From contig NZ_JBBNAD010000004.1 in NCBI RefSeq assembly GCF_037996765.1, positions 372,001 to 436,000 of the forward strand: 64,000 nt of DNA, written 5' to 3'. Under the pieces are notes generated by a model, which was given only the letters and a program-made list of their open reading frames with translations, was not told the origin of the DNA and searched no databases. The position numbers and the translations under genes were made by a program. The DNA is from Bdellovibrio sp. GT3 (GTDB lineage: Bacteria; Bdellovibrionota; Bdellovibrionia; Bdellovibrionales; Bdellovibrionaceae). This document shows positions 22,754 to 29,757 of the stretch, in pieces. Each line of letters begins with the position of its first letter. Positions within the stretch are counted from its first letter, which is position 1.

Positions 22754-23146
22754 ATGTCTCAAGAACAGAAAATGTACGAAATGATCGGCGGTGAGCCGGT
22801 CCTTAGAAAAGTCTGCCAACGTTTTTACGAAATTATGGCGACCTTGCCTGAAGCCAAAGGGATTCTGGAAATGCATCCAGAAAATCTGCGGGGTTCAGAA
22901 GAAAAACTCTTTATGTTTCTGTCTGGCTGGTTGGGGGGCCCTAACCTATTCCAGGAGCGCTTCGGACATCCACGTCTGCGTGCGCGACACCTGCCTTTTT
23001 CAATCGGAAAATCAGAGCGCGATCAATGGATGCTTTGCATGGTTATGGCATTTGAAGATGTGGGCATTCAAGAGCCCATTCGCAGCGAGCTGTTACACTC
23101 GCTTTTGAATTTGGCTGATCATATGAGAAACAAACCCGAGGCCTAA
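22754..23146 (+). CDS. Group II truncated haemoglobin (TrHbO-like)
   Basis: The 130-residue globin has the short 2-on-2 fold. Typical sequences are YEMIGGEPVLRKVCQRFYEI at the N-terminus, FMFLSGWLGGPNLFQERFGH, then PRLRARHLPFSIGKSERDQW, which includes the proximal His region and the conserved Trp of group II. These bind O2, CO, NO or sulfide and are thought to act in NO or peroxide detoxification. It ends 9 bp from the convergent permease gene. Confidence 0.93.
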   Translation: MSQEQKMYEMIGGEPVLRKVCQRFYEIMATLPEAKGILEMHPENLRGSEEKLFMFLSGWLGGPNLFQERFGHPRLRARHLPFSIGKSERDQWMLCMVMAFEDVGIQEPIRSELLHSLLNLADHMRNKPEA

Positions 23147-23155
23147 AACCGAACT

Positions 23156-24520
23156 TTACAAAGTGACAGTCTTTGGCAGGCGCAGGGATCTTTTCTTTTG
23201 GAAGTAGTAAACCGGAACACCCAGCACGATAATAAACAGACCCCAAAGACTTTCTTGTGGGCTTGTCATCAGTGTATTAATCAGTAACAAAACTGCCACT
23301 ATTAAAAACACCACCGGCACCACCGGATATCCCAGGGCTTTGTAAGGGCGGGGTGCGTTCGGCATGGTCTTTCTGAATTTGAATACAGATGAAGTTACCA
23401 GCGCATAGAAAATCCAGGAAGCAAAGATCACGTAGTCTGTCAGCTGATCAAAGGATCCCGTCAGTGCAAGGGCGATGGACAAAGCTGCTTGAACCAAAAT
23501 GGCGATATATGGAGATTCAGATTTTGGATGAAGCTTGGCCAATGCCGGCAGGAACAATCCGTCCTTAGCCATTGCGTAAGGCACGCGGGCGTTGGTCAGA
23601 ATAGAACCATTCATTGCTCCGATGGCTGAAAACATCATGGCGATTCCCAAAAATAAAATACCAGAAGGCCCCATGAAAGTTTCAGCAACTTTGGCTGCCA
23701 CTGGCAATGCATTAGGATGAGTCTTAGAGCTGGAAGTCAGGACTTCATTAAACGGCAGTGCATAGAAATAGCAATAGTGAATGGCGCCGTATAGGCCCAG
23801 AATCACCAATACGCCCAACCCCAAAGCCAAGGGAATGTTGCGGGAAGGATTCTTAATTTCTCCTGCGACCATGGGCATATTGTTCCAACCATCATAAGCC
23901 CACAGAGCTGCCAGCAGGGCTGCCCCAAATGCACTGAATCCTGGGAATACGGAACCCGAAGCCATAATGTTTTCGTTGCTGCCAGTGGTGGAGGAAATCA
24001 GAACGCCGCCAATAATAAATAACAACATGGCGATTTTTAGGAAGGTCATGAAGCTCGCCAAGCGTCCATTCAGTTTGACGTTCATGCAGTTAAGGCCAGA
24101 AAAGAAAACAATCAGCACGATCGCAAATCCCTTCAATCCGCCCATCCACTCCAGATTCATAATGGGAGCTGCAAATGTTGCTGTTCCCACTGCATAGGCT
24201 GCGATGGTCCCAGGTGCTCCCACCCAAAAGCGCATCCAACCATAAAGATACGCAGGCATCTCGCCAAAGGCTTCTTTTAAATAAACGTATTCACCGCCAG
24301 CGCGGGGAAAAAGAATTCCGATTTCTGCGTAGGTCAAGGCTCCGGCCAAGGAAAGCAATCCAGCCACAACATAAGCTATCAGAACCCAGGTAGCAGAACC
24401 CAGGTACTGAGACATGATCGCTGCCTTTAAAAAGACCCCCGTGCCCAGGATGGTTCCCACCACCAAGGAAAATACGGGAATAAATCCTAAAGTTCGATGC
24501 ATTTCATTTTGTGGTGTCAT
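23156..24520 (-). CDS. APC-superfamily permease, last gene of the URC-type operon
   Basis: The 454-residue protein has 12 predicted membrane helices and the APC signature GTILGTGVF in helix 1, with AEIGILFPRAGGEYVYLKEA and AYDGWNNMPMVAGEIKNPSR typical of the LAT/SteT-like amino-acid exchangers. Its ATG lies 12 nt after the udk stop, so it is most likely co-transcribed with the uracil genes. The substrate is unknown. It may import an amino acid, or a pyrimidine-derived compound, or export a pathway product. Only the family is certain. Confidence 0.88.
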   Translation of the reverse strand: MTPQNEMHRTLGFIPVFSLVVGTILGTGVFLKAAIMSQYLGSATWVLIAYVVAGLLSLAGALTYAEIGILFPRAGGEYVYLKEAFGEMPAYLYGWMRFWVGAPGTIAAYAVGTATFAAPIMNLEWMGGLKGFAIVLIVFFSGLNCMNVKLNGRLASFMTFLKIAMLLFIIGGVLISSTTGSNENIMASGSVFPGFSAFGAALLAALWAYDGWNNMPMVAGEIKNPSRNIPLALGLGVLVILGLYGAIHYCYFYALPFNEVLTSSSKTHPNALPVAAKVAETFMGPSGILFLGIAMMFSAIGAMNGSILTNARVPYAMAKDGLFLPALAKLHPKSESPYIAILVQAALSIALALTGSFDQLTDYVIFASWIFYALVTSSVFKFRKTMPNAPRPYKALGYPVVPVVFLIVAVLLLINTLMTSPQESLWGLFIIVLGVPVYYFQKKRSLRLPKTVTL

Positions 24521-24532
24521 AAACCGCTTTCT

Positions 24533-25159
24533 CTAGATGTTAAACTTCGTTGCCAAGTGCAGGCGAACCTGTGCCAGGGCCCGGTGATAGTCTTCATGGT
24601 CCTTTATAATCCTATGAGCGTGGGCCTTGGAAGGCTCTACAAACATATTGTGCATGGGGCGGACTTGGAGGTCGAATTGTTTCTGAACTCCCTCAGGAGT
24701 GCGGCCTCGTTCTTGAACATCGCGTTGCAGACGGCGTTCAAACCGAATGAACTCAGGAGTGTCAAAATAGATGGCTTCATCCAATTCGGCCCGAACTTCG
24801 GGGGAGTGTAAAATCAGAATTCCATCCACGAGGACAATGCGGGTGGGGTGTTTACTTTCTGTTTCAATTTTGCGAGTGTGTGTGACGAAATCATAAATTG
24901 GTACAGACAGGGCTTTGCCATCTTTCAAAGTGCGAAGGCCCTGCGCCAGTAGAGGGAAATCCAGGCTGTCCGGGTGATCGAAATTAACAGAACCTCCATC
25001 GCCGTCAAAACGTGCTGATTGATCGTGGTAGTAGTTATCCTGATACAGGATACTACAGTGGTCCTTGCCCAGCAGGTTTTGCAGCTCCCGGGCGAAAAAT
25101 GTTTTCCCGGAGCCGCTGCCGCCAGCCACGCCAATGATGTGAGGTCGTTGTGAGTTCAT
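24533..25159 (-). CDS. udk: Uridine kinase
   Basis: The 208-residue kinase phosphorylates uridine (and cytidine) to UMP. It has the P-loop GVAGGSGSGKT and the substrate region ILYQDNYYHDQS. NFDHPDSLDF and the lid region RRLQRDVQERGRTPEGV follow, as in the uridine kinase family. The ATG at 25159 is preferred to the GTG two codons earlier. It follows upp by a few bases and feeds the same UMP pool. In this operon it would route prey-derived uridine to UMP. Confidence 0.92.
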   Translation of the reverse strand: MNSQRPHIIGVAGGSGSGKTFFARELQNLLGKDHCSILYQDNYYHDQSARFDGDGGSVNFDHPDSLDFPLLAQGLRTLKDGKALSVPIYDFVTHTRKIETESKHPTRIVLVDGILILHSPEVRAELDEAIYFDTPEFIRFERRLQRDVQERGRTPEGVQKQFDLQVRPMHNMFVEPSKAHAHRIIKDHEDYHRALAQVRLHLATKFNI

Positions 25160-25165
25160 GCGCAC

Positions 25166-25798
25166 CTACTTAGTTTGAAAAAGTCTGTCTCCGGCATCGC
25201 CCAGGCCCGGAATCAAATATCCCATATCATTCATCTCGGTTTCAATATCCAAAGTCAATATTTCGACATCAGGATGAAAATGTTGGATTTTTTGAAGGCC
25301 TTTTTCGCTGACCAGAATACTAAGAACCTTGATTTTACCCACGCCATAGCTTTTCAAGCGGTCGATGCAGGCCATAATGGTGTCAGCTGTGGCAATCAAG
25401 GGATCGCACAAAAACACTTCTTTGCCCAATACATCAGGGGGCATTTTGAAATAGTACTCCACCGTGTTGTTGATAAATTTGTCCCGGTAAATTCCGATGA
25501 AACCTGTGCTGGCGAAAGGAAGCATTGAAAGGGCCGCATCCAGCATTCCGTTTCCGGCGCGCATCACTGACACCACGATAGGTGGGTTGCTGATGCGATA
25601 AGCCGTGGCTTGGGCCATCGGTGTCTCGATGTTGACCTTTTCCATTTGGGACCAATCCTTCATGGCTTCGTAAACCAGAATTTTCGTAACCTCTTTAACG
25701 AGCTCACGGAAGTCATGGGAGTAGGTGTTACGATCTCTCAGGTAACCCAATTTGTGTCGTAATAGCGGGTGATTGATAACTTTCATACGTGTTTGCAT
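25166..25798 (-). CDS. upp: Uracil phosphoribosyltransferase (URC6/Fur1 equivalent)
   Basis: The 210-residue enzyme makes UMP from uracil and PRPP. The C-terminal uracil-binding signature YLIPGLGDAGDRLFQTK is intact. The PRPP loop reads CDPLIATADT instead of the usual DPMLATGGS, which keeps the Asp and Thr but changes the glycines. GAGG lies 10 nt before the ATG. In the fungal URC pathway the same enzyme is essential for uracil catabolism, so its place directly after URC4 is meaningful. Confidence 0.93.
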   Translation of the reverse strand: MQTRMKVINHPLLRHKLGYLRDRNTYSHDFRELVKEVTKILVYEAMKDWSQMEKVNIETPMAQATAYRISNPPIVVSVMRAGNGMLDAALSMLPFASTGFIGIYRDKFINNTVEYYFKMPPDVLGKEVFLCDPLIATADTIMACIDRLKSYGVGKIKVLSILVSEKGLQKIQHFHPDVEILTLDIETEMNDMGYLIPGLGDAGDRLFQTK

Positions 25799-25818: not shown

Positions 25819-27033
25819 TTAAAAAACAGTTCCATCACTTTGAATGCGCAGGGGAGGGGATCCGTCGGCGCGTTTGTCTTTGGCCGCTTTGCGACCCGCC
25901 CACCAGGTGCCCCCTTCAAGAACTTTTGCCAATGGAAATTCGGTGGAGTCTTTTTTAAGTTCTCGTTGCACAGCCTGGCCAATTCGATCCAGCAAACTCA
26001 CTGTCAAACCACGCCACTCGATGACGATTTCAGAGTCAGGAGTGTGGATTTCTTCAGCCATTGAGGGATCTTTCAAAGTGATCAGCCCCAGATCCAACAG
26101 CAGGCCGCCATTGCGATACTCCGCAAGACCGGTCAGTTGATCGATGTCCGTCAATTTAAAACCAGCCTCCATCAAAGGTTCCATCAAGGAATAGGTCATC
26201 CACTGGGATAGTTTATGGAACGAAGCCATTCCTCCGGAAATCTTTGGATACTTCCAGGTATCCCCAAGGTTGACGCCATTCATTTGCATGCGACCCGGCC
26301 AGATATCACCAAGTCCATCAAGGACTGCGCGCAAAAGCTGCGGCCCGGTGACGGTTTTGCCATATTTTGCATCCAGGTAGTCGACCATGCTGCCAGGTCG
26401 TCCCAACGGGAAAATGTCTTTTTTCTCTGAGACGGCCTTGCCTAAGTTGTGCAAAAGCTGCAGACGTCCCTCGACGCCAACCAGTGGATTCCGAGAGGAT
26501 ACTTGAAATATCTTGCACAGAGCTTCGCGGCTTAAGGTTCTAAGGCCCAGATCGGTCGCCTGAAGCGGTTCATCCAGATCATCAGAAAGATAACCAATAA
26601 TAAATAAGTAATAGCTGGCAATCCCCAAGCCCTCGGAGCGCTGAAAGATTTTGCCGGTGCTTTCTTCTTTGAATGACCAGATATTGCCGGCTCCGGCATC
26701 AAGGAGAACAGAAGGAATGACCAGGTCCAATTTAATACGGGCCTGCTCCATCGGATCCAAATGTTGAATGCGCTTACGCAACCAAGAGGCACGATCAACG
26801 TGCCCAGCCTTGAAGTGCCCCCAACGTGAATGGAAGGGGATATCAAGTTCCGGATAGTTTTCACGAATGACCTGTAGGACGTAGTTGACCACACCGTTCA
26901 TCTTTTCCGGATGATAGTTGAAGTGAGTCTGACCTTTTTGCGTCAGCTCCAGGATTTGCTCAGCACTGTGGCGAACGGCTTGTGGAGAGAGAAGAAAATC
27001 CACGCCCTCCATTGCATAACTAACGTTGCTCAT
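25819..27033 (-). CDS. URC4/Urg3 family protein (DUF1688), uracil catabolism
   Basis: The 404-residue protein carries the DUF1688 blocks: RSEGLGIASYYLFIIGYLSD, GRPGSMVDYLDAKYGK, LGDIWPGRMQMNGVNLGDTW, FHKLSQWMTYSLMEPL and LAEYRNGGLLLDLGLI. In Lachancea kluyveri URC4 is one of the genes required to degrade uracil by the URC route; the reaction it catalyses is not settled. The ATG at 27033 lies within the end of URC1 (14-nt overlap) with AGAGG 7 nt upstream; the frame could open earlier, but the preceding region overlaps URC1 and is not family-like. The next gene is upp. Confidence 0.9.
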   Translation of the reverse strand: MSNVSYAMEGVDFLLSPQAVRHSAEQILELTQKGQTHFNYHPEKMNGVVNYVLQVIRENYPELDIPFHSRWGHFKAGHVDRASWLRKRIQHLDPMEQARIKLDLVIPSVLLDAGAGNIWSFKEESTGKIFQRSEGLGIASYYLFIIGYLSDDLDEPLQATDLGLRTLSREALCKIFQVSSRNPLVGVEGRLQLLHNLGKAVSEKKDIFPLGRPGSMVDYLDAKYGKTVTGPQLLRAVLDGLGDIWPGRMQMNGVNLGDTWKYPKISGGMASFHKLSQWMTYSLMEPLMEAGFKLTDIDQLTGLAEYRNGGLLLDLGLITLKDPSMAEEIHTPDSEIVIEWRGLTVSLLDRIGQAVQRELKKDSTEFPLAKVLEGGTWWAGRKAAKDKRADGSPPLRIQSDGTVF

Positions 27034-28282
27034 CGATACCTCTTCCTTGCACCATGGCCAGTTCGTGAACGGATTTCTGCATGCCCTGACTAAAGTATCC
27101 GGCGGCTTTCTTGGCTTCAATTTCGACCTGGGCATCGGCAGGAATTAGGTAGTCGGGAATTGAAATTCGATTCACGACCGAGATACCACTTTTAACAATG
27201 GCATCGTATTTCATGTTGCTCATCGAATGCAGATTGTGAATTTTTGTAATTCCAAAGAAGTTTAAAATATCCGGCATCAACTCCTGGAAACGGGCATCCT
27301 CAACTCCCGCGACACATTCTGTGCGATGGAAGTAAGTGGCAGCAGAGTCTCCGCCAACTTGGCGTTTTCGGGCATTGTAAACCAGGAACTTGGTCACTTC
27401 GCCAAGGGCACGACCTTCCTTGCGGTAGTAGGCGATGATACCAACTCCACCTCGTTGAGCGGTACGGGCCGCATCCTCGATGCCGTAAATCAAATAGGGA
27501 CGGCATGTGCAAATATCAGATCCAAAAACATCGGAACCATTGCATTCATCATGCACCCGGCAAGTCAGTTCGATTTCGGGATTTGCCAGATCCTTGGGAT
27601 CACCAAAAATATAGACAGTCGTGGATCCGATAGGTGGCAGCATCACTTTCAAATCCGGGCGTGTCACCAACTCTGGGAACATGCCGCCAGTTTCCTGAAA
27701 CAGAATTTTGCGCAAATCACCTTCATCGACGTTCAGGCGTTTGGCAATACCGGGCAGGTACCATACCGGTTCAATGGCGACCTTGGTTACTTTGACGTCT
27801 TTGTTTTCTGTGATTATTTTGCCGTCAATTTTCAGACGACCTTTTTCCAAGGCTTCTGTGATCTCGGGAATTTGCAGGCGAGCCTGAGTGACGGCAATAG
27901 TTGGGCGCACATCGTAGCCACAACCGTATGCTTCCTGAAAATGTGCCGGGATGTCAAAACCCCACGGATCCAGTGACACGATTTTGTCAGGGTCATACCA
28001 AGAAGGAAAAGGTCCGATCTTCACAGGGCTTTCAGTGTTGTGCAAGTCTGGACGATGATTGGTAGAGTAGCGACCTTGGGCCACAGATAAAGCCCGGTAG
28101 ACCGTGTAGCTGCCGCTATGTGTGCCGATGGCATTGCGTTTTTTCGAATCCGTCAAAGAGCCCACGACGGGACCGCGTTCCTTGGAGGATTTGGCGCCCC
28201 ATTTGATCGGCAGGCTTTCTTTAAACACATGGCTGGAGTGAGAAGTTAAAACAACGTGAGGTGATCTTTTCAGTTCATTCAT
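27020..28282 (-). CDS. URC1-type GTP cyclohydrolase II homologue, uracil catabolism
   Basis: The 420-residue protein has a GTP cyclohydrolase II core: CRVHDECNGSDVFGSDICTC holds the zinc cysteines, followed by YRKEGRALGEVTKFLVYNAR. It has a long N-terminal extension (about 190 residues, for example RSPHVVLTSHSSHVFKES) and a C-terminal tail not found in RibA. This is the layout of URC1, which in fungi is needed for uracil breakdown rather than riboflavin synthesis and is thought to open a ring in a uracil-derived nucleotide. The ATG at 28282 overlaps the upstream stop as TAATG. No other rib genes are present. Confidence 0.9.
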   Translation of the reverse strand: MNELKRSPHVVLTSHSSHVFKESLPIKWGAKSSKERGPVVGSLTDSKKRNAIGTHSGSYTVYRALSVAQGRYSTNHRPDLHNTESPVKIGPFPSWYDPDKIVSLDPWGFDIPAHFQEAYGCGYDVRPTIAVTQARLQIPEITEALEKGRLKIDGKIITENKDVKVTKVAIEPVWYLPGIAKRLNVDEGDLRKILFQETGGMFPELVTRPDLKVMLPPIGSTTVYIFGDPKDLANPEIELTCRVHDECNGSDVFGSDICTCRPYLIYGIEDAARTAQRGGVGIIAYYRKEGRALGEVTKFLVYNARKRQVGGDSAATYFHRTECVAGVEDARFQELMPDILNFFGITKIHNLHSMSNMKYDAIVKSGISVVNRISIPDYLIPADAQVEIEAKKAAGYFSQGMQKSVHELAMVQGRGIDEQR

Positions 28283-29757
28283 TATGACATCCAATTATTG
28301 TCGTGTTGTTGGTCCCATTTGACTGTGACTTTTTTTAAGTTTGACCAAAAATCCAAAGAAGAAGTTCCGGTTATGTCGCCATGACCGAATTTGGATTGAT
28401 TGATACCGCCGAAAGAGAATGGTTCCCGTGGGACGGGGACGCCCACATTCACTCCGACCATTCCGGTGCTTGCCATAGAAATCACTTTTTCGGCCAATGC
28501 GCCGGAAGAAGTGAAAACCGAACAGGCATTGCCCATCAGTGAAGAGTTCTCGATTCTCATGGCTTCTGAAATATCTTTGCAGCGAACGATACAAAGAACC
28601 GGTCCAAAGAGTTCAAGTTTGGAAATTTCCTGATGTGGCGACACGTAATCCAGAATTGTAGGGCCAATCCAGTTGCCTTGCTCCATACCTGGGGGCGGGG
28701 AGGCCTTTCTGCCATCGAGAAGAATTTTTGCACCCTCGGCGACTGCGTTTGCAATTTGATCATGCAGGAATTTGACTTGCGCCTTGCTGATGATCGCTCC
28801 CATGTCTTTGCCAAGTTCCAGGGAGCTTGCACGGTCGATAATTTTTTGAATGTGGTGACGAACCTCACCAACCGCGAGCACAACAGCCGCGGCCATGCAG
28901 CGTTGACCTGCGCATCCGGTGAAGGAGTCACTGATCCCGATGCCAGCAATTTCTGGATTTGCATCTGGAAGCAAGACAATATGATTTTTTGCTCCGCCAA
29001 GGGCGAGAATGCGTTTGCCGGCTTTAGTGCCACGCTCGTAGACCGCGCGGGCCACTGGTGTTGAACCGACAAAAGAAAGAGCCTGGACATCCGGGTGATC
29101 CAGAAGGGACTGCGCCACTTCGGCACCGCCTTGCAGAACTTGAAAGATGCCATCCGGAAGACCGGCTTCCTGCAGTGATTGGGCAATCTTCATCGAAGTC
29201 AGCGGTGTCTTTTCAGAGGGCTTCCAAATATAGGCATTGCCCAGGGCGAGTGCCGTTGGAATTGTCCAGAAGGGAACCATCGCTGGGAAGTTGAAAGGCG
29301 TGATACTGGCCACAACTCCCACAGGCATTCTGCGATACTCACAGCTTACACCCCGGGAAACTTCCAGCTTTCCGCCGACATCCAGATTTTGCAAAGATGT
29401 TGCAAATTCCAGAACCTCGATGCCTTTCATCAAACCGGCTTTTCCTTCCGCAAAAGTTTTGCCAGACTCTGAACTTTTTAAATGAGAAATTTCATCGATG
29501 TCGCGCAATAGAATTTGACGAAGCTGGAATAGAACTTTCGTACGCTCTTTAATAGGTGTCGCGGCCCATTCTTTCTGAGCTCTGCGTGCGTCTGCGATGG
29601 CAGTTTGAACCTCTTCAGAGGAAGATTGGTGAACTTCGCCAATCAAGGCCCCATTGTGCGGGGAGTGAATAGAAATTTTAGAACCCGTTCCAGCTTTGAA
29701 TTTTCCAGAGACAAAATTCAAAACAGGAATGGGCGAAAGAGGAATCTTAACGCTCAT
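28282..29757 (-). CDS. CoA-acylating (methyl)malonate-semialdehyde dehydrogenase, MmsA-type
   Basis: The 491-residue aldehyde dehydrogenase has catalytic Cys in GCAGQRCMA and the NAD-binding region FNFPAMVPFWTIPTALALGN. The general base of hydrolytic members (ELGGK) is replaced in LALGGAKNH, as in the CoA-dependent MmsA/IolA group. C-terminal VGVNVGVPVPREPFSFGG is also group-typical. Oxidising malonate semialdehyde to acetyl-CoA would complete catabolism of the 3-carbon product of the URC route. It is the first gene of the operon and shares a base with the URC1 start. The exact substrate is inferred. Confidence 0.88.
   Translation of the reverse strand: MSVKIPLSPIPVLNFVSGKFKAGTGSKISIHSPHNGALIGEVHQSSSEEVQTAIADARRAQKEWAATPIKERTKVLFQLRQILLRDIDEISHLKSSESGKTFAEGKAGLMKGIEVLEFATSLQNLDVGGKLEVSRGVSCEYRRMPVGVVASITPFNFPAMVPFWTIPTALALGNAYIWKPSEKTPLTSMKIAQSLQEAGLPDGIFQVLQGGAEVAQSLLDHPDVQALSFVGSTPVARAVYERGTKAGKRILALGGAKNHIVLLPDANPEIAGIGISDSFTGCAGQRCMAAAVVLAVGEVRHHIQKIIDRASSLELGKDMGAIISKAQVKFLHDQIANAVAEGAKILLDGRKASPPPGMEQGNWIGPTILDYVSPHQEISKLELFGPVLCIVRCKDISEAMRIENSSLMGNACSVFTSSGALAEKVISMASTGMVGVNVGVPVPREPFSFGGINQSKFGHGDITGTSSLDFWSNLKKVTVKWDQQHDNNWMS

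Follow-up and report, generated by a model that had tools for sequence, protein, structure and literature searches.

The window analyzed here (64,000 nucleotides) comes from Bdellovibrio sp. GT3 (genome G000; 3.58 Mb, 99.97% complete). It carries six minus-strand genes in the order ALDH-URC1-URC4-upp-udk-permease, with short or overlapping spacings throughout. The first gene (28282..29757) encodes an aldehyde dehydrogenase (ALDH) of the CoA-acylating methylmalonate-semialdehyde type (MMSDH), which scores 460.3 bits against TIGR01722 (cut-off 448.5). URC1 (27020..28294) is a GTP cyclohydrolase II-like protein (NF005536, 735 bits, cut-off 403). URC4/DUF1688 (25819..27033) matches PF07958 at 474 bits; its start at 27033 was inferred from the translation, and the longest open reading frame (ORF) starts at 27135. 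URC4 also has a weak match to Q_salvage (PF10343, 26.9 bits, cut-off 25). This would be consistent with urea being released from ribosylurea by an enzyme with a nucleoside-hydrolase-like fold. Next come upp (25166..25798), encoding a URC6-like uracil phosphoribosyltransferase (UPRT; NF001097 229.5 bits, cut-off 114; TIGR01091 also over its cut-off), and udk (24533..25165), encoding uridine kinase (NF004018 221 bits, cut-off 180). The udk ORF is listed from a GTG, and an in-frame ATG lies two codons further in. The enzymes of a URC operon, URC1, URC4, and UPRT, are thus all present, and these matches over curated cut-offs agree with the uracil genes named in the original prediction. The last gene (23156..24520) is the permease, a 454-aa LAT-like APC protein with an ATG start, identified by its ORF and Pfam match (PF13520). 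A bacterial globin gene (22754..23146, plus strand) is convergent with it at a distance of 9 nt.

The yeast enzymes URC1 and URC6 (UPRT) together form 3-hydroxypropionate and ribosylurea, and URC4 produces urea (PMC7530994, in its available text). In fission yeast, urg1-3 are mutual neighbors and are induced by uracil (PMC2174524, available part). The locus resembles the Lachancea kluyveri URC pathway and fission yeast urg1-3 in its homologues of URC1, URC4, and UPRT, as these are described in the accessible portions of both papers (PMC2174524; PMC7530994). Unlike the yeast genes, it is a bacterial operon that includes ALDH and udk, and the permease is no regular part of such loci elsewhere. 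We compared 108 URC4 loci, 103 of them distinct, the named ones being the best 80 of 126. ALDH, URC1, URC4, UPRT, and UDK are all present in 63 of these 103 loci. This recurring five-gene set with an MMSDH-type ALDH suggests acetyl-CoA as the carbon exit, with malonate semialdehyde presumably converted to acetyl-CoA by the MMSDH-like ALDH. A limited search of the URC gene literature found no treatment of a transporter in bacterial URC operons.

The permease ATG lies 12 nt past the udk stop (gap 24521..24532, minus strand; the udk ORF ends at 24533), as originally predicted. In its own genus, the permease and URC genes are adjacent only in G000, G011, G021, and G022. The distance from the udk stop to the permease ATG is 12, 11, 11, and 10 nt in G000, G022, G011, and G021, respectively. 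Purine-rich stretches (AGAAAG, GAGAGG, AAAGG, or AAAGGA) occur within the gap or over the udk stop in all four species and are candidate ribosome sites. A scan for promoter-like sites found none on the minus strand inside udk, although the scan as a whole performed at chance level (7 sites found, 8.5 expected). Because spacing is 10-12 nt in every species with the arrangement, co-transcription of udk and the permease is likely. The permease would thus probably be transcribed as sixth gene of the operon, which supports its proposed membership. The dN/dS ratio of the permease is 0.023 for G022 and G011, the only usable pair within the clade (others were dS-saturated), indicating purifying selection. 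Together with the near-constant spacing in four species, this suggests that the arrangement may be useful, beyond being merely tolerated.

The permease scores 198.8 bits against AA_permease_2 (PF13520, cut-off 27) over residues 11-431, and PF00324 is the second and last Pfam family that it matches. Neither NCS1 (PF02133) nor NCS2 (PF00860) matches the protein at E 1e-3, and an NCS1/NCS2 uracil carrier was therefore rejected. These matches leave its fold in little doubt and confirm its prior assignment to APC carriers rather than to the nucleobase families. Profile search indicates that it is the sole PF13520 gene in its genome. Against the L-type amino acid transporter subfamily (TIGR00911) it scores 225.4 bits, far below the cut-off of 701.8, a difference from the mammalian LATs. 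Mammalian LATs such as b0,+AT and xCT function with a heavy subunit. The fructoselysine/psicoselysine transporter family (FrlA) matches over the full length at 153 bits, yet the cut-off is 800, and an FrlA-like sugar-amine carrier was rejected. The permease is also far under every curated cut-off for the ethanolamine permease, GABA permease, arginine/agmatine antiporter, and BcaP equivalogs. Since all curated NCBIfam equivalog and subfamily cut-offs are missed, no substrate is assignable from a curated family.

The closest solved structure is BasC, an alanine-serine-cysteine exchanger (6f2g/6f2w), with E 5e-68 to 6f2g over residues 14-444. It is followed by xCT (7ccs, 7p9u) and b0,+AT (7nf6, 6li9), which match over the full length at E about 1e-47 to 1e-54. 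With residues counted from the printed structure-database alignment, TM1 of the permease (GTILGTG; G22-T23-I24-L25-G26-T27-G28) aligns with GTVIGAG of BasC (G15-T16-V17-I18-G19-A20-G21), TM5 K162 corresponds to BasC K154, and TM7 Y244 corresponds to Y236. Permease W207-A208-Y-D210 aligns with BasC F199-A200-Y-D202. The permease thus has the marks of a LAT-type carrier, namely the TM5 lysine, the TM7 tyrosine, and the unwound TM1 motif that binds the alpha-carboxyl group. It shares AYDGW in TM6 with BasC and LWAYDGWN in TM6 with b0,+AT, and the outer-gate Phe199 of BasC is replaced by Trp207, as in b0,+AT. Another difference from BasC is that the permease gene, known here from its sequence, sits behind URC genes. 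In BasC, Ala20 and Gly21 hold the alpha-carboxyl group, Val17, Phe199, Ala200, and Asp202 hold the alpha-amino group. The same paper describes Lys154 and Tyr236 as fully conserved across LATs, and BasC as not transporting acetate, ethylamine, or GABA (PMC6472337, available text).

The BasC-like binding residues and the BasC non-substrates, as given in the accessible part of that paper, favor an alpha-amino acid as the substrate of the permease, which is probably an exchanger of small neutral alpha-amino acids. By the same analogy, the pocket speaks against uracil, which has neither alpha-carboxyl nor alpha-amino groups, and, less firmly, against beta-alanine and ureido acids. In their TM1, TM3, TM5, TM6, TM7, and TM8 segments, the URC-linked permeases closely resemble the permeases of G036, G132, G136, and other genomes with no URC4 match, and the pocket segments give no sign of a specificity shift. 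The original prediction had proposed a pyrimidine-linked substrate, which is not what a LAT pocket for alpha-amino acids, hardly different in relatives without URC, would suggest. Its other proposal, a ureido- or amino-acid-like intermediate or product of the pathway, is less firmly disfavored, BasC being described as refusing GABA (PMC6472337, in the text available).

Linkage of the permease to URC genes is rare. The URC loci were fetched with flanks of 10 kb at most, often less, and the permease was sought by tblastn at 1e-8. It adjoins udk in 4 of the 103 distinct loci (the named ones being the best 80 of 126), all from one clade. In two more of these 103 (L111 and L127), it lies 5.4 and 7.5 kb downstream of udk, and the remaining 97 fetched loci have no tblastn match at this threshold. 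Because the ORF caller always takes the longest ORF and performs poorly at GC-rich loci (about L146-L175), tblastn was used there for the URC genes and the permease. Recurrent linkage beyond one clade, as expected of a URC component, was thus not seen (4/103 adjacent, two more 5-8 kb away), and the check named in the original prediction, whether URC operons elsewhere carry the same family, gave a mostly negative result among these loci.

Other membrane proteins also occur beside URC loci. Sixty-one such ORFs were listed and 20 were scanned; the four permeases are among the remaining 41. The scanned ORFs belong to SSF, AEC-type Mem_trans, CLC, MFS (4), EamA (2), DUF2189 (2), TauE, Sbt_1, TerC, FUSC, HupE, ABC, NrsF, and GGDEF families, and one has no match. 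As these 20 are unrelated families, a common transporter partner of URC operons in other taxa was rejected. At one locus from a Bdellovibrionales MAG (L123, 2859-4313), an SSF-family symporter (484 aa) occupies the same slot, 12 nt after udk. In a Bacteriovoracaceae MAG (L104, 12467-13393), an AEC-type transporter (PF03547) lies 16 nt after udk. Related loci (L098, L100, L101, L107, and L135) have ORFs of similar length and hydrophobicity further downstream, the one in L104 being the one scanned.

In a tree of 37 permeases, with reading frames chosen by tblastn, the four URC-adjacent proteins form one clade (support 100/99). The permease of G010 (76% identity) is sister to this clade, with support of 100/100 for the five. 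Surrounding the URC-adjacent clade are 15 rows whose genomes gave no URC4 match. A URC-specific permease clade was rejected on this tree, on the 4 of 103 loci, and on the 14 of 21 genomes described below. In G010, the permease is on another contig than URC and is convergent with the same globin. The G010 URC locus keeps its upstream flank (DUF1904, MCP, DUF924), and behind udk it has other genes for 4.4 kb up to the contig end. One of them, a 291-aa ORF, has no Pfam match and is not claimed as a transposase. In G004 (48% identity), two genes lie between the permease and a globin, and URC is again on another contig. The globin adjoins the permease in G011, G021, and G010 and is near it in G004, even where URC is not adjacent; in G022, the ORF caller gave a different ORF at the globin position. 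Permease neighbors vary elsewhere. In one clade of Bacteriovoracaceae, the permease and URC4 share contig and strand at distances of 6.7 kb (G209), 15.5 kb (G158), and 8.8 kb (RE-26jul17-105); L111 and G209 have the same gene order on contigs of equal length and were counted as one genome. The rough chance of such proximity is ~1% for one lineage (a 32-kb zone in about 3.4 Mb), and with several lineages counted it is mildly suggestive.

These neighborhoods bear on whether the permease merely landed behind udk by accident and is separately expressed or gains nothing from the operon. A same-strand ORF within 50 nt after udk is common (30 of 73 loci with a udk hit) and its identity varies, the permease being 4 of these 30, so adjacency by itself carries little information. 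The globin is also still next to the permease in G010 and close to it in G004, and in neither genome does URC adjoin the permease. However, 12 nt is too short for a promoter, and the scan, at chance level overall, gave no minus-strand site in udk. In addition, the spacing has been kept in four species though synonymous sites are largely saturated. Accident in this strict sense is therefore unlikely.

Co-occurrence of permease and URC genes was compared at three scales. Among the nearest 59 genomes (own genome included; permease counted at ≥48% identity), 28 have URC4 and nine have the permease. URC is present in 6 of the 9 permease genomes vs. 22 of the 50 others (Fisher p = 0.29, uncorrected for kinship). 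Within the genus, URC4 is found in 17 of 24 genomes and the permease in six, all six having URC4. In a phylum sample of 191 genomes, a close permease (E ≤1e-115, plus fragments in G126 and G121; a cut set after the list was seen) is found in 21, URC4 in 68, and both in seven. URC accompanies 7 of the 21 permeases vs. 61 of 170 others (Fisher p = 1.0); without the genus, the values are 4 of 18 vs. 51 of 157 (p = 0.44), both uncorrected for kinship. Thus, permease and URC occur independently in the phylum sample. Fourteen of the 21 genomes with a close permease have no URC4 match, although G036 is 81% complete and its lack of URC4 is weaker evidence. The original prediction had named permeases of this clade that never accompany URC genes as evidence against it, and this is largely what the 14 of 21 represent. 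The pairing is probably incidental, because relatives are mostly apart from URC clusters and the pocket is suited to ordinary amino acids.

A working role in the URC pathway, in which the permease would import uracil or a nucleoside or export urea, 3-hydroxypropionate, or a beta-amino acid, draws on its position at the end of the operon, 10-12 nt behind udk in four species, and on what the genome appears to lack. In profile searches of G000 with positive controls, there was no NCS2 (PF00860), NCS1 (PF02133), CNT C-terminal (PF07662), or Nuc_H_symport (PF03825) match; in the PF03219 search the control was silent. Urease alpha also had no match in G000 despite the full URC operon, so urea would have to leave the cell, and the permease is the only PF13520 gene at hand. 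Against this role, URC is missing from most permease genomes and the permease from most URC loci, and the alpha-amino-acid pocket is unchanged in the URC-linked clade. GABA is not taken by BasC (PMC6472337, accessible part), and none of the 20 other membrane proteins tested beside URC loci is an APC permease. Strain 109J is said to use prey nucleoside monophosphates (NMPs), so a base carrier may be unneeded (PMC7529429, in the part available). Two points made in a metabolic-model paper are consistent with the permease acting on amino acids and with NMPs entering by another route. We consider such a pathway role improbable. It is more doubtful still that this only PF13520 permease of G000 was recruited to move an amino-acid-like URC compound or carry out a linked exchange, such as beta-alanine, derived from malonate semialdehyde, for amino acids of the prey.

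The best explanation, to which we assign a probability of about 74%, is that the permease is an ordinary LAT-type (SLC7/BasC-like) transporter for neutral alpha-amino acids whose gene, in one Bdellovibrio clade, came to lie last in a URC operon of the standard five-gene kind (ALDH-URC1-URC4-upp-udk). The permease may exchange neutral amino acids over the inner membrane during digestion of prey macromolecules. The benefit of the pairing is perhaps co-expression, as prey digestion frees both amino acids and nucleotides. The title of a 2024 paper states that amino acids fuel prey-independent growth (PMC11271337), and the word "permease" is absent from its available text. The data are explicable without transport of a pyrimidine or a URC product. 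A wider question is that of pyrimidine uptake and urea disposal in URC-bearing predators in which searches for the usual carriers and urease give no match. Caution is warranted in annotation, and the substrate of a transporter should not be read from a single operon neighbor; the gene at the end of a conserved core operon may differ from lineage to lineage.
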